Source: Cytophagales bacterium
GTDB taxonomy: Bacteria > Bacteroidota > Bacteroidia > Cytophagales > Cyclobacteriaceae
Length of the DNA stretch: 64,000 nt
Assembly (NCBI GenBank): GCA_013298505.1
Contig: JAAFHY010000006.1
Span: forward strand, 1 to 64,000
Reading direction: 5' to 3'
This document shows, piece by piece, positions 1,946-13,892 of this stretch. The position numbers and the translations under genes are program-made. A model generated the notes under the pieces. That model was not told the origin of the DNA and searched no databases. It worked only from the letters and a program-made list of their open reading frames with translations. Each line of letters begins with the position of its first letter. Positions within the stretch are counted from its first letter, which is position 1.

Positions 1946-3850
1946 ATGAAGTCGAAGAATTGGATTTTTTACACATTGATTTTTATCAGTTCGGTTGCGT
2001 TAGCTCAGCAACCTGTTGTGGTGGATGACTTTGTTGAAGAAAAAAACTTCATGCCCTATGAATTAATGTATTATAAAGACTTAACCAATACGGTTTCTTT
2101 TCAACAAATCTCATCATCCGATTTTGCCAATAAATTTCAGCAGCACACTAACTACCTCAACAAAGATTTTATTCCAAACGCGGCCTATTGGGTACGCTTG
2201 CCTATTCGCCATGTTTCTGAGACGAAAAAAACTTGGCTATTAGAATTTTACGATCAAACCATTGATAAGATTGACGCGCACATACCTCAATACGATGGCA
2301 CATATCAACTAGTAAAACTCGGAGACGAGCAACCGTTTAATCAACGATTGTTTCGACACAAAAATTTTGAGCTAATGCTAGACATGCGAAAAGACACCGT
2401 CATGTTCTACTATTTTAAAGTTCAATCGCATGAGTTTGCCGATATCCGAATTGCGTTTAGGTCTACCAATCGATTTATCTATTACTCGCTTAACGAATAT
2501 TTTTTGTTTGGTACTTTTTACGGGATGATATTAATTATTATCCTATATAATTTCTTAACATTCTTAGCAATAAGAGAAATCAAGTATGTCTATTACATCT
2601 TTTATATTTTTAGTGTTGCGCTGTATGCGTTAAGTTTAGACGGAATAGGATTCCAATACTTGTGGCCTAATCGCCCAGAGCTAAATGCGTATGCAACGGG
2701 TATTTCTCTCTACTCTGTAATTATTTGGTCCCTTATTTTTACAAGGCGCTTTTTAAGCCTCAAAGCAAAAGCTTCAACGCTTAACGCTCTATTCAAATGG
2801 ATGATTGCAATTCGTACTGTGATCTTTATTGTGGCTCTATTTTTTGAACCTTCTTTGTTTAATCAGCGCATCATTGAAATCGTTCCGCTATCGCTTATTT
2901 TTTATTCTGCTATTCACGTTTGGCGTAACGGGTATAGGCCAGCCCGATTTTTTGTTATTGCATACGGAATTTTGTTTTCGGGTTTTTTTCTTAGGGCAAT
3001 GGTCTATTTCAATGTGCTGCCTTTTACTATTTTATCGCATTATAGCTTGCACCTGAGTTTTGTTTTTGAGATGTTATTTTTAACGTTGGCCCTTGGCGAT
3101 CGAATCCGAATATTGAAAGACAATAGAGATAGAGCACTTCGCAAAATCATTAATCAGCAAACGGTGAACATGCAGTTGAAAGATAAAGTAAACCGCGAGC
3201 TGGAGGTAAAAGTGCAAGAGCGAACTCAAGATTTGAATATGCTAAACCATGAACTAGAAAAAAGCAATCAAAAATTGAATGCCCAAGCGAAAGAGATTAA
3301 TCAAATAAATTCATTATTGGATTTAGATAACTGGAAGCTAAAGAATCGGGTGAAAGAGGTGCTAAATGAAATGTTGATGGAGAAGACAATGAATTATCAA
3401 GAGTTTAAAACGCTCTATCCTGATACCCTTGCAGCATATCGGTTTTTGGAAAACTTAAAGTGGCAAAATGGATTTACCTGCAGTAAATGCGGAAATCAGA
3501 AATATTTTGATGGAGCGCAAAAGTTTTCGAAGCGATGCACAAAATGCGGCTACAATGAATCAATAACATCCTACACTATTTTTCAGGGTATAAAATTTCC
3601 GGTTGAAAAGGCATTCTATATCGCTTATTTGTGTGTGGTAGGAAAGAAAGAAGGCACTCTTGAATCTTTTGCAAAGCAACTTGATGTAGCACTAAATACA
3701 GTATGGGCCTTTCGCTTAAAAGTAGTAGTTCGCATAAAAGAATTGGAAGATTCGGGCAGGCCTCTTACCGCATCTAAATGGGAAGAGGTGATCTTGCAAT
3801 CACCTTCTCCAAAGAAGAAAAGAACCCCCAAAATTAAGGTGTTGAGCTAA
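1946..3850 (+). CDS. 7TMR-DISM membrane sensor fused to IS1595-transposase-type zinc ribbon/HTH domain
   Basis: Signal peptide, 7TMR-DISMED2-like N-term, seven-TM region, coiled coil, then NYQEFKTLYPD...FTCSKCGNQKYF...RCTKCGYNESITSYTIFQGIKFPVEKAFYIAYLCVVGKKEGTLESFAKQLDVALNTVWAFRLKVVVRI. Confidence 0.85.
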   Translation: MKSKNWIFYTLIFISSVALAQQPVVVDDFVEEKNFMPYELMYYKDLTNTVSFQQISSSDFANKFQQHTNYLNKDFIPNAAYWVRLPIRHVSETKKTWLLEFYDQTIDKIDAHIPQYDGTYQLVKLGDEQPFNQRLFRHKNFELMLDMRKDTVMFYYFKVQSHEFADIRIAFRSTNRFIYYSLNEYFLFGTFYGMILIIILYNFLTFLAIREIKYVYYIFYIFSVALYALSLDGIGFQYLWPNRPELNAYATGISLYSVIIWSLIFTRRFLSLKAKASTLNALFKWMIAIRTVIFIVALFFEPSLFNQRIIEIVPLSLIFYSAIHVWRNGYRPARFFVIAYGILFSGFFLRAMVYFNVLPFTILSHYSLHLSFVFEMLFLTLALGDRIRILKDNRDRALRKIINQQTVNMQLKDKVNRELEVKVQERTQDLNMLNHELEKSNQKLNAQAKEINQINSLLDLDNWKLKNRVKEVLNEMLMEKTMNYQEFKTLYPDTLAAYRFLENLKWQNGFTCSKCGNQKYFDGAQKFSKRCTKCGYNESITSYTIFQGIKFPVEKAFYIAYLCVVGKKEGTLESFAKQLDVALNTVWAFRLKVVVRIKELEDSGRPLTASKWEEVILQSPSPKKKRTPKIKVLS

Positions 3851-3885
3851 GCATCTTTTTAGTCATTCTGTCTCTCAAAAATCAA

Positions 3886-3971
3886 ATGTTTTTATTCTGT
3901 GAGATTATGGTGCCAAAAGGATAAAAAATTAACCGAAAACGGTTGAAATCAATGTTTTTATTCCGTGAAAT
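3886..3971. promoter_or_regulatory. Pair of 20-bp direct repeats (ATGTTTTTATTCYGTGARAT) flanking a short inverted repeat (AACCGAAAACGGTT) upstream of susC
   Basis: Copies at 3886-3905 and 3952-3971 (18/20 identical, 66-bp spacing); inverted repeat at 3931-3944. Confidence 0.6.
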
Positions 3972-4031
3972 CAGCTATTCAAAGTGCCCTTCAATAGTTA
4001 ACATTTTAAGCATGTTTCGTCAAAAAAATTC

Positions 4032-4060
4032 TTGAATAAGCTTGCTTGCACATAAATTTA
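4032..4060 (+). promoter_or_regulatory. Putative Bacteroidota promoter of susC (TTG-N18-TAAATTTA)
   Basis: Resembles -33 TTG / -7 TAnnTTTG architecture; last base deviates. Confidence 0.35.
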
Positions 4061-4083: not shown

Positions 4084-7000
4084 ATGAGTATGACAGGTAA
4101 TTCATTACGTAGAGCACTGATCGTCATTGCGTTAGCAGCAAATAGCTTCAATGCTTTGGCGCAGAATAGACTGATTAAAGGTAAAATAACATCGGTAGAA
4201 GACGGACAATCAATAGAATTGCCAGGCGTAAACGTAGTTATTGAGGGCTCAGCAAAAGGCACAACATCAGATATTGAAGGTAACTATTCTATTGAGGTAG
4301 CTGCTGCCGACAAATCTCTTTCGTTTTCATTTATAGGATATAAGACTAAGAGTATAAAGATTGGCGACCAGACCGTAATTAATATTGTTCTAGAGCCAGA
4401 TACTAAACAGCTAGAAGAAGTGGTGGTAGTAGGATATGGCGTTCAAAAAAAATCTGACATTACTGGATCTACCGCCAACGTAAAAGGCGATGAATTGTAT
4501 AAGCAGCCTGTGCTTACCGCTACGCAGGCGCTGCAAGGCAAGGTGGCAGGCGTTCAAATTATTAGTAGTGGGCAACCGGGATCATCTCCACAAATAAGGG
4601 TGCGAGGCGTTAGTACTGCATTGGCGGGTACTGCTGCGTTGTATGTAGTAGATGGTGTACTCACGGACGATATCTCAAATATTAATACGGCCGATATTGT
4701 TGATATGAATGTGCTGAAAGATGCGTCTTCAGCCGCTATTTATGGTTCCAGAGGTGCAAATGGTGTTATTATCATAACAACCAAAAGAGGAGTATCAGGA
4801 AAACTATTGGTAAGCTACAATAATAACATAGGCATTCGCCAAGCCGCTAACTTAGTGGAGATGGCAAATAGTGCAGATTACAGTAATTATGTGCAGGCAG
4901 CAACGGGTAATGTTCCCCCCGCCACAGGTTACAATACAGATTGGTTTAAAACGATTTTGCGTAATGCATGGCAGCAAAACCATAACATTTCTATTTCTGG
5001 TGGTTCGGAGAAATCTACCTTTTTGGTGAATGTGGGCTATTTGACTGATGAAGGGATAGTATTAGATAATGACTTTAAGCGCCTGACGATTCGGGTCAAC
5101 CAGGATTTCAAAATCAATACTATACTTAAAGTAGGTATCCAATCATCGTATACCAATAGTAGGAATCAAAATGGTTTTTCAAATATTGATATCGATGAAT
5201 TTGGAAACATAGGCCAAGTGTACAACAACGCCTATCGGGCTGCACCCATTATTGCCAGCATTGTAGGTGGCAAGTATGGTAATTCTTCAACGTATCATAA
5301 TGTTGGAAACCCATTGTTAAATCTTAAAGATAACAGCGTAAAAGTAGTGGCCGATCGCCTTCAAGGATCTACCTTTTTAGAAGCAAAACCGCTTGATTGG
5401 TTAACAATTAAAACTTCCATTGGCGCAGATTGGCGCAATTCACTGAATAGAGCTTATAACTATAGGTTTTTTGCAGATGAAAGCACCTTCTTGGTAGCTG
5501 GAGGTAATCAATATAACAACCGAAGTAATTTGGGCATTAAGAATACCCAATCCTTGCAGTGGGTTTGGGACAACATTATTACCGCGAGCAAAAAATTTGA
5601 TAAGCACGATTTTACCCTAATGGTTGGAACTACAGCCGAGGAATATCGCAATACTTCATTTAGCGCCAGCAGAAAAGATGTGCCCGCAGACCAAAGCCTT
5701 TGGTACATAGGAGTAGGCGATGCCAACAGTTCGCAAAACGAAGGAGGGGGCGATGCGTGGGCAAGAAACTCTTACTTAGCCCGACTTAATTATTCTTATA
5801 ATGGAAAGTATTTGCTAACTGCAACCATTCGTAGTGACGGCAGCTCTCGTTTACCAAAACAAAATCGCTGGCAGCAATATCCTTCTGTTGGATTAGGTTG
5901 GGTGCTGACCCGAGAGCCATTTATGCAGAACCAAACTATTTTTGATTTGCTTAAGTTGCGAACCTCATTTGGTATTGTTGGCAATGATAGAATACCAACC
6001 GATGCGTTTACCCAAACAGTATCACTCAACAAACCGTATGCTTTCAATGGAAGTGTGGCTGAAGCTACCAATGGCGTTCAGATTAATCAGATTAAAGATC
6101 CTAACCTTAATTGGGAAACAACCGAAGAGATAGATTTTGCAATTGAGTTTTCAGCATTACAATCAAAATTAACAGGAGAAGTTAATTACTATAACAAAAA
6201 GGTAAAAAACGCACTCATCAATGTTCCAATTCCTCGAACAGTAGGCGATGTAGATGGCGTAATTCTAACCAATGCAGCATCTATTCAAAATACAGGTGTT
6301 GAAGTATTGCTTAATTGGAAAGATCGGATCAACCCAGATTTCTCATATTCCATTGGAGGAAACGTAACATTTAATACCAACAAAGTTGTGGCCTTAAACG
6401 GGGGGCAGGCCATTCGCGGTGGTTACATTGGAGCCGCCCAAGGGTTTACAACGTATTCAGATAATGGGTTGGCCATAGGAAGCTTTTATGTTTTAAAAAC
6501 ACAAGGCGTTTTTAATTCAGATGCTGATGCTGCTGCCTATACAGATACCAATGGCAAAATGATTCAACCCAATGCAAAGGCGGGCGATTTTAGGTACCAA
6601 GATGTAAATGGCGATGGAGCGATTGATGACAACGATCGAGTGCTTGCCGGATCGTATCAACCAAAAGCCTACTATGGAATTAACCTTACTGCCAACTACA
6701 AAGCGTGGGATTTTAGCTTATCTATTTATGGCAATGCGGGCAACCAAGTATATAATGGTAAACGAGCCGTTCGTTTTCAAGGTGACGACAATATTGAAAA
6801 AGCATTAGTTTATAACAGGTGGACATCATCCAGCCTTTCACAAACCCAACCGGCCGCTAATACAGGCAATCAATTGGCGTCCGATTATTTTGTAGAATCA
6901 GGTTCGTTTGTACGAATAAATAATTTAACAGTCGGTTACGCGTTTCCACAGAAAGTATTGCAACGCCTAAAGATTTCGAGCTTGCGAGTATACGCAACTT

Positions 7001-7137
7001 CTCAAAATTTATTTACTCTACAAGATTATAGCGGCTTTACACCCGAATTGCCGGGCGACCCACTCAATTCAGGAATCGAGTTAAGTGCCTACCCAACTAC
7101 AAGAACTATTGCCGTTGGCTTAAATGTAAATTTCTAA
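4084..7137 (+). CDS. SusC/RagA-family TonB-linked outer membrane protein
   Basis: Carboxypeptidase-D-like N-term, TonB box-like EEVVVVGYGVQKKSDITGS, plug motif VRVRG...VVDGV, SusC C-terminal TTRTIAVGLNVNF. Confidence 0.97.
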   Translation: MSMTGNSLRRALIVIALAANSFNALAQNRLIKGKITSVEDGQSIELPGVNVVIEGSAKGTTSDIEGNYSIEVAAADKSLSFSFIGYKTKSIKIGDQTVINIVLEPDTKQLEEVVVVGYGVQKKSDITGSTANVKGDELYKQPVLTATQALQGKVAGVQIISSGQPGSSPQIRVRGVSTALAGTAALYVVDGVLTDDISNINTADIVDMNVLKDASSAAIYGSRGANGVIIITTKRGVSGKLLVSYNNNIGIRQAANLVEMANSADYSNYVQAATGNVPPATGYNTDWFKTILRNAWQQNHNISISGGSEKSTFLVNVGYLTDEGIVLDNDFKRLTIRVNQDFKINTILKVGIQSSYTNSRNQNGFSNIDIDEFGNIGQVYNNAYRAAPIIASIVGGKYGNSSTYHNVGNPLLNLKDNSVKVVADRLQGSTFLEAKPLDWLTIKTSIGADWRNSLNRAYNYRFFADESTFLVAGGNQYNNRSNLGIKNTQSLQWVWDNIITASKKFDKHDFTLMVGTTAEEYRNTSFSASRKDVPADQSLWYIGVGDANSSQNEGGGDAWARNSYLARLNYSYNGKYLLTATIRSDGSSRLPKQNRWQQYPSVGLGWVLTREPFMQNQTIFDLLKLRTSFGIVGNDRIPTDAFTQTVSLNKPYAFNGSVAEATNGVQINQIKDPNLNWETTEEIDFAIEFSALQSKLTGEVNYYNKKVKNALINVPIPRTVGDVDGVILTNAASIQNTGVEVLLNWKDRINPDFSYSIGGNVTFNTNKVVALNGGQAIRGGYIGAAQGFTTYSDNGLAIGSFYVLKTQGVFNSDADAAAYTDTNGKMIQPNAKAGDFRYQDVNGDGAIDDNDRVLAGSYQPKAYYGINLTANYKAWDFSLSIYGNAGNQVYNGKRAVRFQGDDNIEKALVYNRWTSSSLSQTQPAANTGNQLASDYFVESGSFVRINNLTVGYAFPQKVLQRLKISSLRVYATSQNLFTLQDYSGFTPELPGDPLNSGIELSAYPTTRTIAVGLNVNF

Positions 7138-7141
7138 TAAG

Positions 7142-8701
7142 ATGCAGATCAATCCAGTAAATACGCGAGAAATGAAAATAGCATTCTTAAAATTAACTCT
7201 GGTTATTACACTTGTTTCAGGTGTCTTTTATTCATGCAGCGATAGTTTCTTAGACGTGCCAGTACAGGGTGGAGTAAGCCCCGCTTCAGATCCTGACCTT
7301 GCGCCTAAATTAGTAACGGGTGTTTACCATAGTCTTATACAGGGCAGTTCGTTTGGCGATGGCGATATACATGGCTTTGCGTTTGTTTCGGTTACCAGCA
7401 TCATGTCTGATGATGCCGATAAGGGAAGTACCTTGGGCGACCAAGCAGTGCCCGTGGGCGACTTAGATAATTTTACGATTAGTCCTACCAACCGATTTGC
7501 AGAAACTTTGTGGAGCGGGCATTACAATAGTATTGGTGCTGCCAATCAAGCACTATCGGCCTTGTCGAAAGCTACTTCTATCGCGCCAACCTTACGGAAT
7601 CAATTAACAGGTGAAGTTAAATTTCTTCGTGCATATCTCTATTTCAATTTAGTGAGAATGTATGGTGCCGTGCCGTTGGTGCTTAGAGTTCCCAAAGATG
7701 CTCAGGATGCCAATACGGAGCCCTCTTTTCAAACACGCGTTGCGGCAACCATTGTGTACGATAGCATTGCACGCGATTTACAATATGCCGTTACCAACCT
7801 TCCACTAAAATCTCAATCGGCTGTGGGGCATGCCAACAAAGGTGCTGCCCAGGCATTGCTTGCCAAAGTATATATGTATCAGAATAAATGGAGTTTGGTA
7901 AAATCGTTGACAGATGACGTGATCAATTCTAATCAATATCAATTGCTACCGAATTACGCTAATCTGTGGAGACAAGAGAGCAACAACAACATCGAATCTA
8001 TTTTCGAAATTCAGACGGGTGGTTTTAACAACGCTAATTTGGGTCCCGATCTATACACCATTTGTCAAGGCGTGCGCGTAGGTGGAAGAGGTGGATGGGA
8101 CGATTTAGGCTGGGGCTTCAATAATCCAAGTACCAATTTAGTAAACGCCTACGAAGTGGGTGATCTAAGAAAGGCCGCTACCATATTGGCAATCGATAAT
8201 TCAGGAACGTTCAAAGGCACTATGTTGTGGGATGGATTTAGAGTGCCTAGTTCTGATTCGGTTCAAAACTTGTTTTACAACTACAAGGCGTATGCGAGTA
8301 AAGAAAAAGAGAAATATGAAGATAAAGGAAATAAAAACCTTCCTAAAAACATCCCGATTTTACGATATGCTGATGTTCTTTTAATGAATGCGGAAGCAGC
8401 ATTACAACCAAGTATCAATCAGCCCGCATTGGCACTGGATAATATTAACAAGATAAGACTTCGTGCAGGTTTACCCATCAAAGGAAGTGTTACCATAGCC
8501 GATGTTTGGAAAGAGCGAAGAATAGAATTGGCGATGGAGCACGATCGGTTTTGGGATTTGGTAAGGCAAGGGAATGCGGGCGCAGTATTGCGTGCAGCAG
8601 GCAAAACTAATTTTGTAGATGGCAAGCACGAATTGTTGCCAATACCCAACTCTCAAATTTTACTGAGCGCAAATAAACTAACACAAAATCCAGGTTATTA
8701 A
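7142..8701 (+). CDS. SusD/RagB-family nutrient-binding outer membrane lipoprotein
   Basis: Immediately downstream of susC; FLRAYLYFNLVRMYGAVPLV, VWKERRIELAMEHDRFWDLVRQG, LLPIPNSQI...NPGY; the true start may be MKIAFLK. Confidence 0.96.
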   Translation: MQINPVNTREMKIAFLKLTLVITLVSGVFYSCSDSFLDVPVQGGVSPASDPDLAPKLVTGVYHSLIQGSSFGDGDIHGFAFVSVTSIMSDDADKGSTLGDQAVPVGDLDNFTISPTNRFAETLWSGHYNSIGAANQALSALSKATSIAPTLRNQLTGEVKFLRAYLYFNLVRMYGAVPLVLRVPKDAQDANTEPSFQTRVAATIVYDSIARDLQYAVTNLPLKSQSAVGHANKGAAQALLAKVYMYQNKWSLVKSLTDDVINSNQYQLLPNYANLWRQESNNNIESIFEIQTGGFNNANLGPDLYTICQGVRVGGRGGWDDLGWGFNNPSTNLVNAYEVGDLRKAATILAIDNSGTFKGTMLWDGFRVPSSDSVQNLFYNYKAYASKEKEKYEDKGNKNLPKNIPILRYADVLLMNAEAALQPSINQPALALDNINKIRLRAGLPIKGSVTIADVWKERRIELAMEHDRFWDLVRQGNAGAVLRAAGKTNFVDGKHELLPIPNSQILLSANKLTQNPGY

Positions 8702-8992: not shown

Positions 8993-9871
8993 ATGAAAAA
9001 AACAGCAAATTATTTTTTATCCAGCGTGGCCGCAGCTGCCCTGATGACCTTTGCGGGTTGTTCTTCAGACACGCCAGCATTGCCAAAAATTGATGGGTTT
9101 AATAACTCCAACGAAGTGGCAACTACTAATTTGAAGGCTCATTGGACTTTTGATGATACGAACAATGAGAGACTTTCAAGTACCCCACCCAGTAATACAT
9201 ATGGTACAGTAGGGTTTACAACAGGCAAAATTGGCAAGGCTTTACAATTAACTAGCGGTGCTTTGGTATTCCCAAGCATAGCAAACATAGGTTCTGCAAA
9301 TTCATTGGGTAATTTTACTGTTAGTTTATGGGTCAAGGCTTCGAATAATAAGAGCACAGCCAGTGCAGGCGCTACTGCAATCTTCGCTCTTCTATACGCA
9401 GACGATACTGATATTTGGGGAAACATCAATATGCTAGCGGAGACTGGCGCGCACTTATCAACTTCTGATACTTTATTACTCAAGCCATTGTTGAACAACG
9501 CGGGCAACGGTAATTTACAAGATAACATTAGCGTAGTCAACGGAAGTGTAGGAAAGCACTTTTTGGGTGCTAAAGATTGGGCGCACTATGTAGCCAGATG
9601 GAATGGAACTACTCATCAATTTGAAATTTTTGCAAATGGAGTAAACGTTGGAGCTTACAATGATAGAGGTACTACTCCAGCACTTATTATGAGAACTCCA
9701 GTAAAGGCAGTTTTTGGTAGTTTATCTTATAAAGACATTGGATTTGCAAGCGCGCCTACCAGAGGAATTCCCTTAGCAAAGGCTTCAATAGATGATGTAA
9801 GGGTTTATAATACACCACTTGCAGATAAGGATATAACTGCGCTATATAAATTAGGGCTTGCAGGAAGGTAG
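8993..9871 (+). CDS. LamG/concanavalin A-like domain lipoprotein (SusE-position glycan-binding candidate)
   Basis: Lipoprotein signal TFAGCSSD; LKAHWTFDDT...GKIGKALQLTSG...FTVSLWVKA...IDDVRVYNTPLADKDITALY. Confidence 0.85.
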   Translation: MKKTANYFLSSVAAAALMTFAGCSSDTPALPKIDGFNNSNEVATTNLKAHWTFDDTNNERLSSTPPSNTYGTVGFTTGKIGKALQLTSGALVFPSIANIGSANSLGNFTVSLWVKASNNKSTASAGATAIFALLYADDTDIWGNINMLAETGAHLSTSDTLLLKPLLNNAGNGNLQDNISVVNGSVGKHFLGAKDWAHYVARWNGTTHQFEIFANGVNVGAYNDRGTTPALIMRTPVKAVFGSLSYKDIGFASAPTRGIPLAKASIDDVRVYNTPLADKDITALYKLGLAGR

Positions 9872-9951: not shown

Positions 9952-11577
9952 ATGAAAAAAATATTTAGTTTTGTTTTCTTGTTTCTTGTTTTTTCATGCA
10001 CAAAGAATGATCAAACGCCTCAATCAACCGACCCGTTCACTATTGCAAATTTTGAGCTAGATGGCCGAGCCATTAGTTATAGGTACACAAACGCATCTAC
10101 AACACCAACCTTCACACTTTACTTTTCAGAACCAGTCGATCGCCAATCAGCAGAAGCAGGATTGGTTTGGTCGAATAATACGGGTAACATTCCGGCTAAC
10201 TTTTCTTTTAGCCATAAGGATAGTGTGGTAAGTGTAACTCCCGCATCTCCTCTTAATTATTGGAGTACATCCTATCTCACCGTTTCCACTGAACTTTTAT
10301 CGGCATCTAAAAAACCGTTTAGCTCAGCGTTCTTTATCAAGATCATCACCCAGATCAATCTTGCTCCCAAGTTTACAACCATTAGCGATGAGGAGTTATT
10401 AACCCTCACGCAACAAAAGACATTTCAGTATTTCTATGAATTCGCACATCCTGCCAGCGGCATGGCGCGCGAGCGAAATACTTCGGGCAACACAGTAACC
10501 ACAGGTGGAACGGGCTTCGGAATTATGGCAATACTCGTAGGCATTGAGCGAAGTTTTATCACACGCCAGCAAGGCGTTCAACAAATTAATAAGATCGTAA
10601 CCTTTTTAGAAAAAGCAGATCGCTTTCATGGAGCATGGTCGCACTGGGTAGATGGCAATACCGGAAAGGTAATTCCTTTTAGCACAAAAGATAACGGTGG
10701 CGACTTAGTAGAAACTTCCTTTTTAGTTCAAGGGCTACTAACTGCCCGCCAATACCTTGCGCCTACTGATACAGTGGGTAACAACTTGATTAAACGAATT
10801 AACAAATTGTGGGAGGCTGTTGAGTGGGATTGGTATCGAAAAAATAACGAGCAAGTTTTGTACTGGCATTGGTCGCCCAATTTTAATTGGGATATGAACT
10901 TCCCCTTGTACGGATATTTTGAGCAGCAGATTACCTATGTGCTCGCTGCGGCATCGCCCACACACAGCATTCCAAAATCGGTTTACAACAATGGCTATGG
11001 AAAAAATGGAAGTATAAAAACAGGCAATCTCCATTATGGAATTAAACTTCCGCTGGGCACACCCAGTCCACTTTTTTGGGTGCAGTATTCTTATCTCGGG
11101 CTCGACCCGCATTTCTCAGATGAGTATGCAAACTATTGGGAGCAAAATGTAAATGCAACGAAGATCAATTATTTGTACTGTGTCGCCAATCCAAAAAAGT
11201 ATCCCAACTATGGCGAGTCTTGTTGGGGGCTTACCTCTAGCGATAACCAAGTAGGGTACAATGCGCATTCTCCCTCCAACGATTTAGGTGTAATAACTCC
11301 TACTGCAGCATTGTCGTCTTTCCCTTACACACCGGCTGAGTCCATGAAGGCACTGAAGTTTTTTTATTACACCATGGGCGATCGGCTTTGGGGTACTTAT
11401 GGCTTCTATGATGCATTCAATATTTCTGAAGCCTGGATGGCCAATTCCTACCTCGCTATCGACCAAGGTCCCATTGTTGTGATGATAGAAAATCATCGCA
11501 CCGGATTACTCTGGAATTTATTCATGTCAGCACCGGAGATTCAATCCGTAAAAACGAAATTAAGTTTTACTCCTTAG
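9952..11577 (+). CDS. GH144-like (PF10091) glycosidase lipoprotein with N-terminal Ig-like domain
   Basis: Lipoprotein signal FSCTKN; LTQQKTFQYFYEFAHPASGMARERN, GFGIMAILVGIERSFITRQQG, CWGLTSSDNQVGYNAHSP, DQGPIVVMIENHRTGLLWNLF. Confidence 0.85.
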   Translation: MKKIFSFVFLFLVFSCTKNDQTPQSTDPFTIANFELDGRAISYRYTNASTTPTFTLYFSEPVDRQSAEAGLVWSNNTGNIPANFSFSHKDSVVSVTPASPLNYWSTSYLTVSTELLSASKKPFSSAFFIKIITQINLAPKFTTISDEELLTLTQQKTFQYFYEFAHPASGMARERNTSGNTVTTGGTGFGIMAILVGIERSFITRQQGVQQINKIVTFLEKADRFHGAWSHWVDGNTGKVIPFSTKDNGGDLVETSFLVQGLLTARQYLAPTDTVGNNLIKRINKLWEAVEWDWYRKNNEQVLYWHWSPNFNWDMNFPLYGYFEQQITYVLAAASPTHSIPKSVYNNGYGKNGSIKTGNLHYGIKLPLGTPSPLFWVQYSYLGLDPHFSDEYANYWEQNVNATKINYLYCVANPKKYPNYGESCWGLTSSDNQVGYNAHSPSNDLGVITPTAALSSFPYTPAESMKALKFFYYTMGDRLWGTYGFYDAFNISEAWMANSYLAIDQGPIVVMIENHRTGLLWNLFMSAPEIQSVKTKLSFTP

Positions 11578-11606: not shown

Positions 11607-13892
11607 ATGAATAATACGTATCTTCCATTTTTTTTAGCGCTCTTCATGACAGCCGGGTGCTCTACTCCTTCCCCAGACAAAGCTGACCGCATGTCAATGG
11701 TTGTAGATTCTGTTTTGAGTCAGATGACGTTAGAAGAAAAAATAGGTCAGCTCAATTTACCATCAGCCGGTGATTTTGTCACTGGGCAAGCGGAGAACTC
11801 AGACTTCGCAAAGAAAATTGAGAAGGGAATGGTAGGTGGTTTGTTCAACATCAAGACGGCAGCTCGCATTCGGGAAGTACAAACGATTGCCGTAGAGAAA
11901 AGCAGAACCAAGATTCCCTTGCTATTTGGAATGGATGTTATCCACGGGTATGAAAGTGTGTTTCCGATCCCGCTCGGCTTAAGTTGTTCTTGGGATATGA
12001 AGTTGATTGAACGCAGTGCACGCATAGCCGCACAGGAAGCCAGTGCCGATGGCATCAATTGGACATTCTCACCAATGGTAGACATCTCGCGCGATGCCCG
12101 TTGGGGAAGAATATCAGAAGGAAGTGGCGAAGATCCTTTTCTTGGCTCTGAGATTGCCCGTGCGATGGTGCGTGGCTATCAGGGAAATGATTTATCCGCG
12201 AACAATACTATTATGTCGTGTGTGAAACATTATGCGCTCTATGGTGCTGCAGAGGCAGGCCGCGATTACAATACAGTTGATATGAGTCATCACCGAATGT
12301 ATAATGAATACCTGCCGCCTTACAAGGCTGCCCTAGACGCGGGAGCAGGAAGTATTATGGCTTCGTTCAACGAAGTAGATGGTATACCGGCAACTGCAAA
12401 TAAATGGTTACTAACCGATGTATTGCGCAACGAGTGGGGCTTCAATGGATTTGTGGTTTCTGATTATACCGGCCTTACAGAAATGATTGAACATGGATAT
12501 GGCGATACAGTTACTGTTTCAGCGAAAGCATTGGAAGCCGGATTGGATATGGACATGGTGAGCGAGGGTTTACTCAATACACTCGCACGCTCGGTAAAAG
12601 AGGGAAGAATTTCAGAACAACAAATTACTACTGCCTGCAGAAGGGTTTTGGAAGCCAAATATAAATTGGGATTGTTTGACGATCCATATAAATATTGCAA
12701 CGAGGAGCGTGCAAAAGCAGAAGTGTTTAGCGCGGCCAATCGGGCCGAGGCGCGAAGTACAGCCACACAAAGTTTTGTTCTGTTGAAAAACCAAAGCGAA
12801 GTGTTGCCGCTGAAAAAAAGGGGGACTATTGCACTTATTGGCCCACTGGCAGATGCTAAAGAAAATATGACGGGTACCTGGAGCGTAGCTGCTCGTTTTG
12901 CAGAATCCATTTCGGTAAAAGCAGGTTTCGAGAAAGCATTGGAAGGAAAAGCAAAAGTGTTGTATGCAAAAGGTGCAAATTTGGATGAAGACGAGGCGAT
13001 TGAAGAGCGAGCTACGATGTTTGGGAAATCACTCCATCGCGATAAGCGATCTGCCGATGAATTGAGAAATGAGGCAATAGCTATTGCGAAAAAAGCGGAT
13101 GTGATTGTAGTTGCCGCAGGTGAAGCCGCAGAAATGAGTGGTGAATCTTCGAGCCGAACAGATATTCAAATTCCGGAGACGCAACGTGAGTTGATAAAAG
13201 CATTATTGAAAACAGGCAAACCCGTAGTGTTGGTGTTGTTTACAGGAAGACCACTTGCATTAAAATGGGAATCGGAAAATGTACCAGCTATTTTAAACGT
13301 TTGGTTTGGTGGCAGCGAAGGAGGCGATGCGATTGCCGATGTTTTGTTTGGTGACATAAACCCTTCTGGAAAACTGACAACCACCTTTCCGCAGAACGTA
13401 GGTCAGGAACCGATGTATTACGCACAAAAAAACACGGGCAGACCCTTGGGCGATGCAAAGTGGTTTCAGAAATTCAAATCCAACTATTTAGATGTTTCGA
13501 ATGAACCATTATATCCATTTGGATTTGGATTGAGTTATACGCAGTTTAACTATGGTAATTTAGTACTTAGTAAAAGTGAGATGACTGCAAATGATTCTAT
13601 TATGGCTTCAATTACGGTAACTAATTCGGGTAAGCATGATGGAGCAGAAGTGGTGCAATTTTATATTCGTGATTTAGTAGGATCGGTTACTCGCCCGATA
13701 AAAGAACTGAAGGGTTTTGAGAAAGTGATGATCAAAGCAGGCGAGACAAAGACTATTGTATTTAAGATTACCAACGAGCAACTTTCTTTCTATCGCCACG
13801 ATTTGACCTATGGCAGCGAGCCAGGCAAATTTCAATTGTTTGTTGGAGGCAATTCGCGAGATGTAAAACAAGCGGAGTTTAATTTAAACTAA
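11607..13892 (+). CDS. bglX: GH3 beta-glucosidase
   Basis: Full-length BglX-like: MTLEEKIGQL, GMDVIHGYESVFPIPLG, VSDYTGLTEMIEHGYG, SYTQFNYGNL, FnIII-like C-term. Confidence 0.93.
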   Translation: MNNTYLPFFLALFMTAGCSTPSPDKADRMSMVVDSVLSQMTLEEKIGQLNLPSAGDFVTGQAENSDFAKKIEKGMVGGLFNIKTAARIREVQTIAVEKSRTKIPLLFGMDVIHGYESVFPIPLGLSCSWDMKLIERSARIAAQEASADGINWTFSPMVDISRDARWGRISEGSGEDPFLGSEIARAMVRGYQGNDLSANNTIMSCVKHYALYGAAEAGRDYNTVDMSHHRMYNEYLPPYKAALDAGAGSIMASFNEVDGIPATANKWLLTDVLRNEWGFNGFVVSDYTGLTEMIEHGYGDTVTVSAKALEAGLDMDMVSEGLLNTLARSVKEGRISEQQITTACRRVLEAKYKLGLFDDPYKYCNEERAKAEVFSAANRAEARSTATQSFVLLKNQSEVLPLKKRGTIALIGPLADAKENMTGTWSVAARFAESISVKAGFEKALEGKAKVLYAKGANLDEDEAIEERATMFGKSLHRDKRSADELRNEAIAIAKKADVIVVAAGEAAEMSGESSSRTDIQIPETQRELIKALLKTGKPVVLVLFTGRPLALKWESENVPAILNVWFGGSEGGDAIADVLFGDINPSGKLTTTFPQNVGQEPMYYAQKNTGRPLGDAKWFQKFKSNYLDVSNEPLYPFGFGLSYTQFNYGNLVLSKSEMTANDSIMASITVTNSGKHDGAEVVQFYIRDLVGSVTRPIKELKGFEKVMIKAGETKTIVFKITNEQLSFYRHDLTYGSEPGKFQLFVGGNSRDVKQAEFNLN

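Follow-up and report, generated by a model that had tools for sequence, protein, structure and literature searches.

The window, the 64-kb stretch of DNA analysed here, encodes at 1946–3850 on the plus strand a 634-residue protein (from the list of open reading frames) that we consider, with a probability of about 0.82, to be a membrane-tethered one-component activator of a polysaccharide utilization locus (PUL). Its output domain would derive from a single capture of an IS1595-type module and would act at tandem sites in front of susC. The surrounding genes, all on the plus strand, form a PUL comprising the regulator, susC, susD, a LamG-type lipoprotein, PF10091 proteins and GH3. A glycosidase of the PF10091 glycoamylase family (582–1937) ends 8 bp before the regulator, with which it is probably co-transcribed, and a spacer of 233 bp leads to a susC-like gene for a TonB-dependent transporter (4084–7137), the presumed target. 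This is the position, between a glycosidase and susC, given in the original prediction. Further downstream lie a susD-like gene (7142–8701), a LamG/ConA-like lipoprotein identified with Pfam (8993–9871), a Big_5 plus PF10091 glycosidase (9952–11577) and a GH3 glycosidase (11607–13892).

The protein begins with a signal peptide, followed by a periplasmic 7TMR-DISMED2 domain (2063–2452, residues 40–169; Pfam E = 3e-24, 85.9 bits against a curated cut-off of 22) and a 7TMR-DISM_7TM membrane domain (2495–3103, residues 184–386; E = 7e-45, 153.9 bits against a cut-off of 29). A cytoplasmic coiled coil and linker (3104–3385, about residues 387–480), modelled as a long helix by AlphaFold2 (AF2), contains a conserved INSxLDLDNWKLKN segment and leads into an IS1595-type zinc ribbon (Zn_ribbon_IS1595, PF12760; 3431–3553, residues 496–536; 31.4 bits against 25.4, E = 1.8e-7) with cysteines at residues 512, 515, 531 and 534. 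The helix–turn–helix (HTH) helices of the transposase-derived module (3602–3751, about residues 553–602) were placed by the AF2 model and by profile comparison. The profiles PF07696, PF07695 and PF12760 were all matched, each domain above its curated Pfam cut-off, so the predicted order of a DISMED2-like domain, seven transmembrane helices, coiled coil, IS1595 ribbon and HTH is borne out. An AF2 model of residues 440–634 (mean pLDDT 86.6) consists of a long helix, two short helices, the ribbon and the HTH, the last two confidently predicted. Against solved structures, the module model gave no significant match, the weak ones being a mixture of HTH regulators and zinc ribbons. The Pfam search of the protein revealed no kinase, receiver or AraC domain and, as had been claimed, no match to the DDE catalytic domain (PF12762); the frame ends at 3850. 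Because PF12762 is absent, the regulator is not a transposase. With a sensor and a putative DNA-binding domain in one chain and no phosphotransfer domain, it has the predicted make-up of a one-component transcription factor.

An in-frame ATG at 3389 with GGAG upstream is present in the window, and the original prediction had proposed that it releases a soluble DNA-binding product. This start is poorly kept among 95 homologues, with methionine at the position in 67 and a Shine–Dalgarno-like tract in 30 of those 67. A separate soluble fragment was rejected on these counts, and the internal start is probably not used.

The family is broad and well conserved. Full-length relatives were found in 15 of the 24 other genomes searched from the same genus, one of them truncated by a contig end, and the C-terminal module occurs in 168 of 391 genomes of the order (E <= 1e-10), with most of the listed matches in frames of more than 600 residues. 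A scan of species-representative genomes retained 80 loci, all of them fusions except one broken at a contig end. The four CxxC cysteines, whose loss in orthologues would have spoken against the original prediction, are invariant in 95 of 95 proteins. This invariance, together with the independent match of 53 of 56 homologues to the same Pfam ribbon family, indicates that the ribbon match is not due to chance. Values of dN/dS for the module range from 0.007 to 0.11 in pairs where they could be computed, and by this measure it is under purifying selection.

Profile alignment of the module with intact, DDE-bearing IS1595 transposases gave an hhalign probability of 99.9 (E = 1.8e-32) over 127 columns, covering both ribbon and HTH. 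A maximum-likelihood tree of the module unites the fused proteins in a single clade (support 98/94) nested among IS1595 transposases, with a 137-residue stand-alone module branching at its base. Since the fusions form one clade inside the transposases, a single capture is the simplest history: one ancient event would have taken the DNA-binding part from an IS1595-type transposase and left the catalytic domain behind. Judged by this homology and nesting, the module is of transposase origin, which upholds the suggestion that a transposase end-binding module had been domesticated. Although IS1595-family transposases share the ribbon and HTH, they carry a DDE domain, whereas the regulator lacks one and has its module fused to a receptor in a stable gene. 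Nor does the module show the multi-copy mobility typical of IS1595 transposases: Zn_ribbon_IS1595 occurs above the cut-off once in the source genome, and the gene is syntenic in many genera.

The fusion is closely associated with susC. We examined the neighbourhoods of 79 regulators less than 90% identical to each other, a sample that favours close relatives. Downstream on the same strand, the first real gene was susC in 65 and another gene in 13; in the remaining one it lay outside the sequence in view. By comparison, susC was next in none of the 30 module-less 7TMR-DISM paralogs (from a total of 32) whose downstream gene was in view (Fisher p = 6e-18, calculated with 33 controls; the conclusion is the same with 30). 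The survey of fusions and their PUL neighbourhoods suggested with the original prediction has thus come out in its favour. The SusC proteins that adjoin the homologues are 31–84% identical to that of the window; as they are quite different, the ligands probably differ among homologues.

A candidate operator was identified in the spacer between regulator and susC, at 3932–3974 on the plus strand, scoring 46.8 bits; the next best site in the 64-kb window scores 5.1 bits. It belongs to a 43-bp motif (31.6 bits; consensus core TCAATGTTTTTTTTGCGTAAAA) present in 57 of 69 non-redundant regulator–susC spacers. Over all loci, these spacers make up 1.8% of bases and hold 61 of the 65 motif matches of at least 13 bits. 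A 17-mer from the motif was searched for in 39 genomes, with the reversed pattern as a control. Within the genus it matched eight times, each time in a regulator–susC spacer, and not at all in the 10 members without a full-length relative; the reversed control had no matches. The exact 17-mer has diverged in seven regulator-bearing members of the genus, and one extra match, in another family of the order, is unconnected with the regulator–susC system. The other 27 susC-like places in the source genome have no operator nearby, with scores of at most 7.2. In Ohtaekwangia koreensis (L086), where genes intervene between regulator and susC, a 40.1-bit site lies directly before susC, and in its near relative L078, a short contig on which susC is out of view, the same site is found more than 4 kb past the regulator; both sites had been left out of motif building. 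The operator therefore goes with susC, not with the regulator, when the two are separated. Separately, locus L028 has a 15.3-bit operator-like site on the minus strand near 11291, away from the regulator. We also compared the operator by eye with the terminal ends mapped for three related, though distant, IS1595 families (TTTTTGTATATCCGT, AAGGGAATTACCGG and AATGAATGTCCGCA), and saw no convincing likeness that would derive it from IS1595 terminal repeats.

The operator core is repeated. A second copy (3883–3904, plus strand) precedes the first (3949–3970) by exactly 66 bp. Of 57 regions, 38 have an upstream second core at a distance of 65 or 66 bp, and three others have it at 64 bp. An autocorrelation that makes no use of the motif gave peaks at lags of 65 and 66 when all spacers were taken together; in the spacers with weak motif scores the peak was at 64. 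At a fixed distance downstream of the operator is a promoter-like block (4022–4058, plus strand) made up of an A-tract (offset +91 to +95), TTG (+110 to +112) and AAATT (+122 to +126), which reached 19.5 bits, compared with a maximum of 5.3 in a jittered null, when spacers were aligned on the operator alone. The classical Bacteroidetes -7 box TAnnTTTG shows no excess downstream of the operator (2 found against 5.5 expected). The block itself (AAAAAnnT...TTG...AAATT) is unlike the usual TTTG/TAnnTTTG promoter of Bacteroidetes and may be the sign of an unusual sigma factor or of an activator-dependent promoter. Because the tandem sites lie upstream, at a rigid distance from the promoter-like block, they suggest an activator. 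That a tandem site is conserved in the region of the susC promoter is strong, if indirect, evidence for DNA binding there, and we infer from position and co-conservation that this site belongs to this protein.

Domains, conservation, susC synteny and the conserved tandem site all agree with the proposal of a one-component, membrane-tethered transcription factor. In our model, the periplasmic DISMED2 domain would respond to a ligand, which is most likely an oligosaccharide freed by the glycosidases of the locus; that the ligand is a sugar, and perhaps beta-1,2-glucan, we infer. The 7TM unit and coiled coil would relay the signal to the cytoplasmic side and probably fix the geometry of a dimer. 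Upstream of susC, the ribbon/HTH module would then bind the pair of tandem sites, which lie 66 bp apart and are defined by their conservation, and the bound module would help RNA polymerase at the promoter a fixed distance downstream.

The same receptor–operator pair could instead work as a repressor that is released from DNA on ligand binding, and the operator data are silent on the sign of control. We nonetheless regard this as unlikely, as the paired sites stand well upstream of the conserved promoter-like block, at rigid spacing and not on it, which is the geometry of an activator; furthermore, the analogous SusR is an activator (PMC3878776). The intergenic position of the conserved block, upstream of susC, would also suit an RNA element such as a leader or attenuator. 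That reading has very little to recommend it: the regulator–susC spacer has no Rfam match, and direct repeats about six helical turns apart with a promoter-like block downstream suggest a position upstream of the start of transcription.

Zinc ribbons can also bind proteins or RNA, so the module might contact one of these while a different, unlinked regulator uses the DNA repeats. We consider this improbable, since each genome has essentially a single such site, found only beside the regulator family, with no exact 17-mer in the 10 same-genus genomes that lack a full-length relative; the site of a global regulator would be expected near other susC genes, where it does not recur. A decayed or accidental, functionless fusion of a receptor with an IS1595 remnant could be imagined, IS1595 elements being common in the phylum, but it is contradicted by frames that stay intact in many genera, by the invariant cysteines, by strong purifying selection and by syntenic susC, and we give it almost no credence. 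We therefore return to the membrane-tethered activator as our preferred reading. On a wider scale, it is likely that the fusions constitute an additional class of PUL regulator, order-wide (Cytophagales-type): 7TM one-component receptors with an IS1595 output captured once, acting at sites 65–66 bp apart before susC.

The original prediction had presented the protein as an alternative to HTCS or ECF/anti-sigma regulation, but it omitted the nearest functional analogue, the SusR-like membrane regulators. SusR-like proteins of Bacteroides are also membrane proteins with a periplasmic sensor and a cytoplasmic DNA-binding end, often encoded beside susC/susD (PMC3878776). SusR activates its target operons, and for SusR (BT3705) and SusR2 (BT3091) direct repeats have been predicted with centres 67 or 77 bp apart (PMC3878776), compared with 65–66 bp here, a likeness that we treat as analogy and not as membership. 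HTCS are likewise membrane-spanning PUL regulators in a single polypeptide, but they have kinase, receiver and AraC domains, all three of which the regulator lacks. As a stand-in for SusR in profile comparison, we used the DUF6377/TPR membrane-regulator family, which we take to be SusR's own. The stand-in has no zinc ribbon and matched the module only in 27 columns of the HTH (probability 7%); on this comparison, homology between SusR and the module is not supported. Judged by the non-homologous DUF6377 stand-in, the geometry common to SusR-like proteins and the regulator looks, provisionally, like convergence.

Two other systems share parts of the design. NicD of Pseudomonas aeruginosa has the same DISMED2 and DISM_7TM input half, and its DISMED2 domain is reported to bind carbohydrates, but its output is a GGDEF enzyme where the regulator has a putative DNA-binding module (PMC8544897). 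In proteobacteria, the ChiS-family DNA-binding domain is joined to membrane sensors including 7TMR-DISM, and ChiS directly activates the chitobiose operon; this again places a DNA-binding domain on a membrane sensor in control of a sugar operon, although the ChiS-family fold is helix–sheet–helix and neither a zinc ribbon nor a transposase origin has been described for it (PMC8092284). One-component membrane PUL regulators (SusR) and proteobacterial 7TMR-DISM proteins with DNA-binding ends are thus already known, whereas the pairing of such a receptor with a captured IS1595 module, the breadth of the family and the operator are apparently new. The literature searched, whose scope did not take in the founding 7TMR-DISM paper, contains no earlier description of the 7TMR-DISM plus IS1595-module architecture. 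If the activator reading is true, bacteria would here offer a clear example of a membrane receptor that acquired a transposase end-binding domain as its output and then spread as a gene regulator. Operator, promoter spacing and target are predicted closely enough for immediate testing, and they provide a searchable regulator and site for the polysaccharide loci of environmental Bacteroidota. The SusR-like spacing, apparently reached without homology, raises the question of why membrane-tethered PUL regulators should need a pair of sites separated by six helical turns.

Some genomes of the order have six or more fused-receptor paralogs, and 12 copies from three paralog-rich genomes (L256–L267; G472, G523 and G474) lie away from susC. 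Several Fulvivirga-type homologues (L137, L139, L141, L147 and L148) have neither susC nearby nor a strong operator, and may sense or regulate something else. Given these 12 paralog copies and the Fulvivirga-type copies without susC, not every protein of the family controls a PUL. The module is also found on its own, without DDE domain or receptor, in proteins of 137 (L055/L184) and 154 residues (L190), which are possible small regulators or remnants. Finally, one genome (G199; L054, L182, L183 and L249–L255) encodes about nine dispersed, mutually diverged IS1595-like proteins of 295–331 residues, which keep the ribbon and HTH and have an altered catalytic EVDE stretch (e.g. EVEILICELG, EISDFELG). 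In the module tree they are sister to the fused receptors plus the stand-alone L055, and they appear to be the product of a second, independent domestication.
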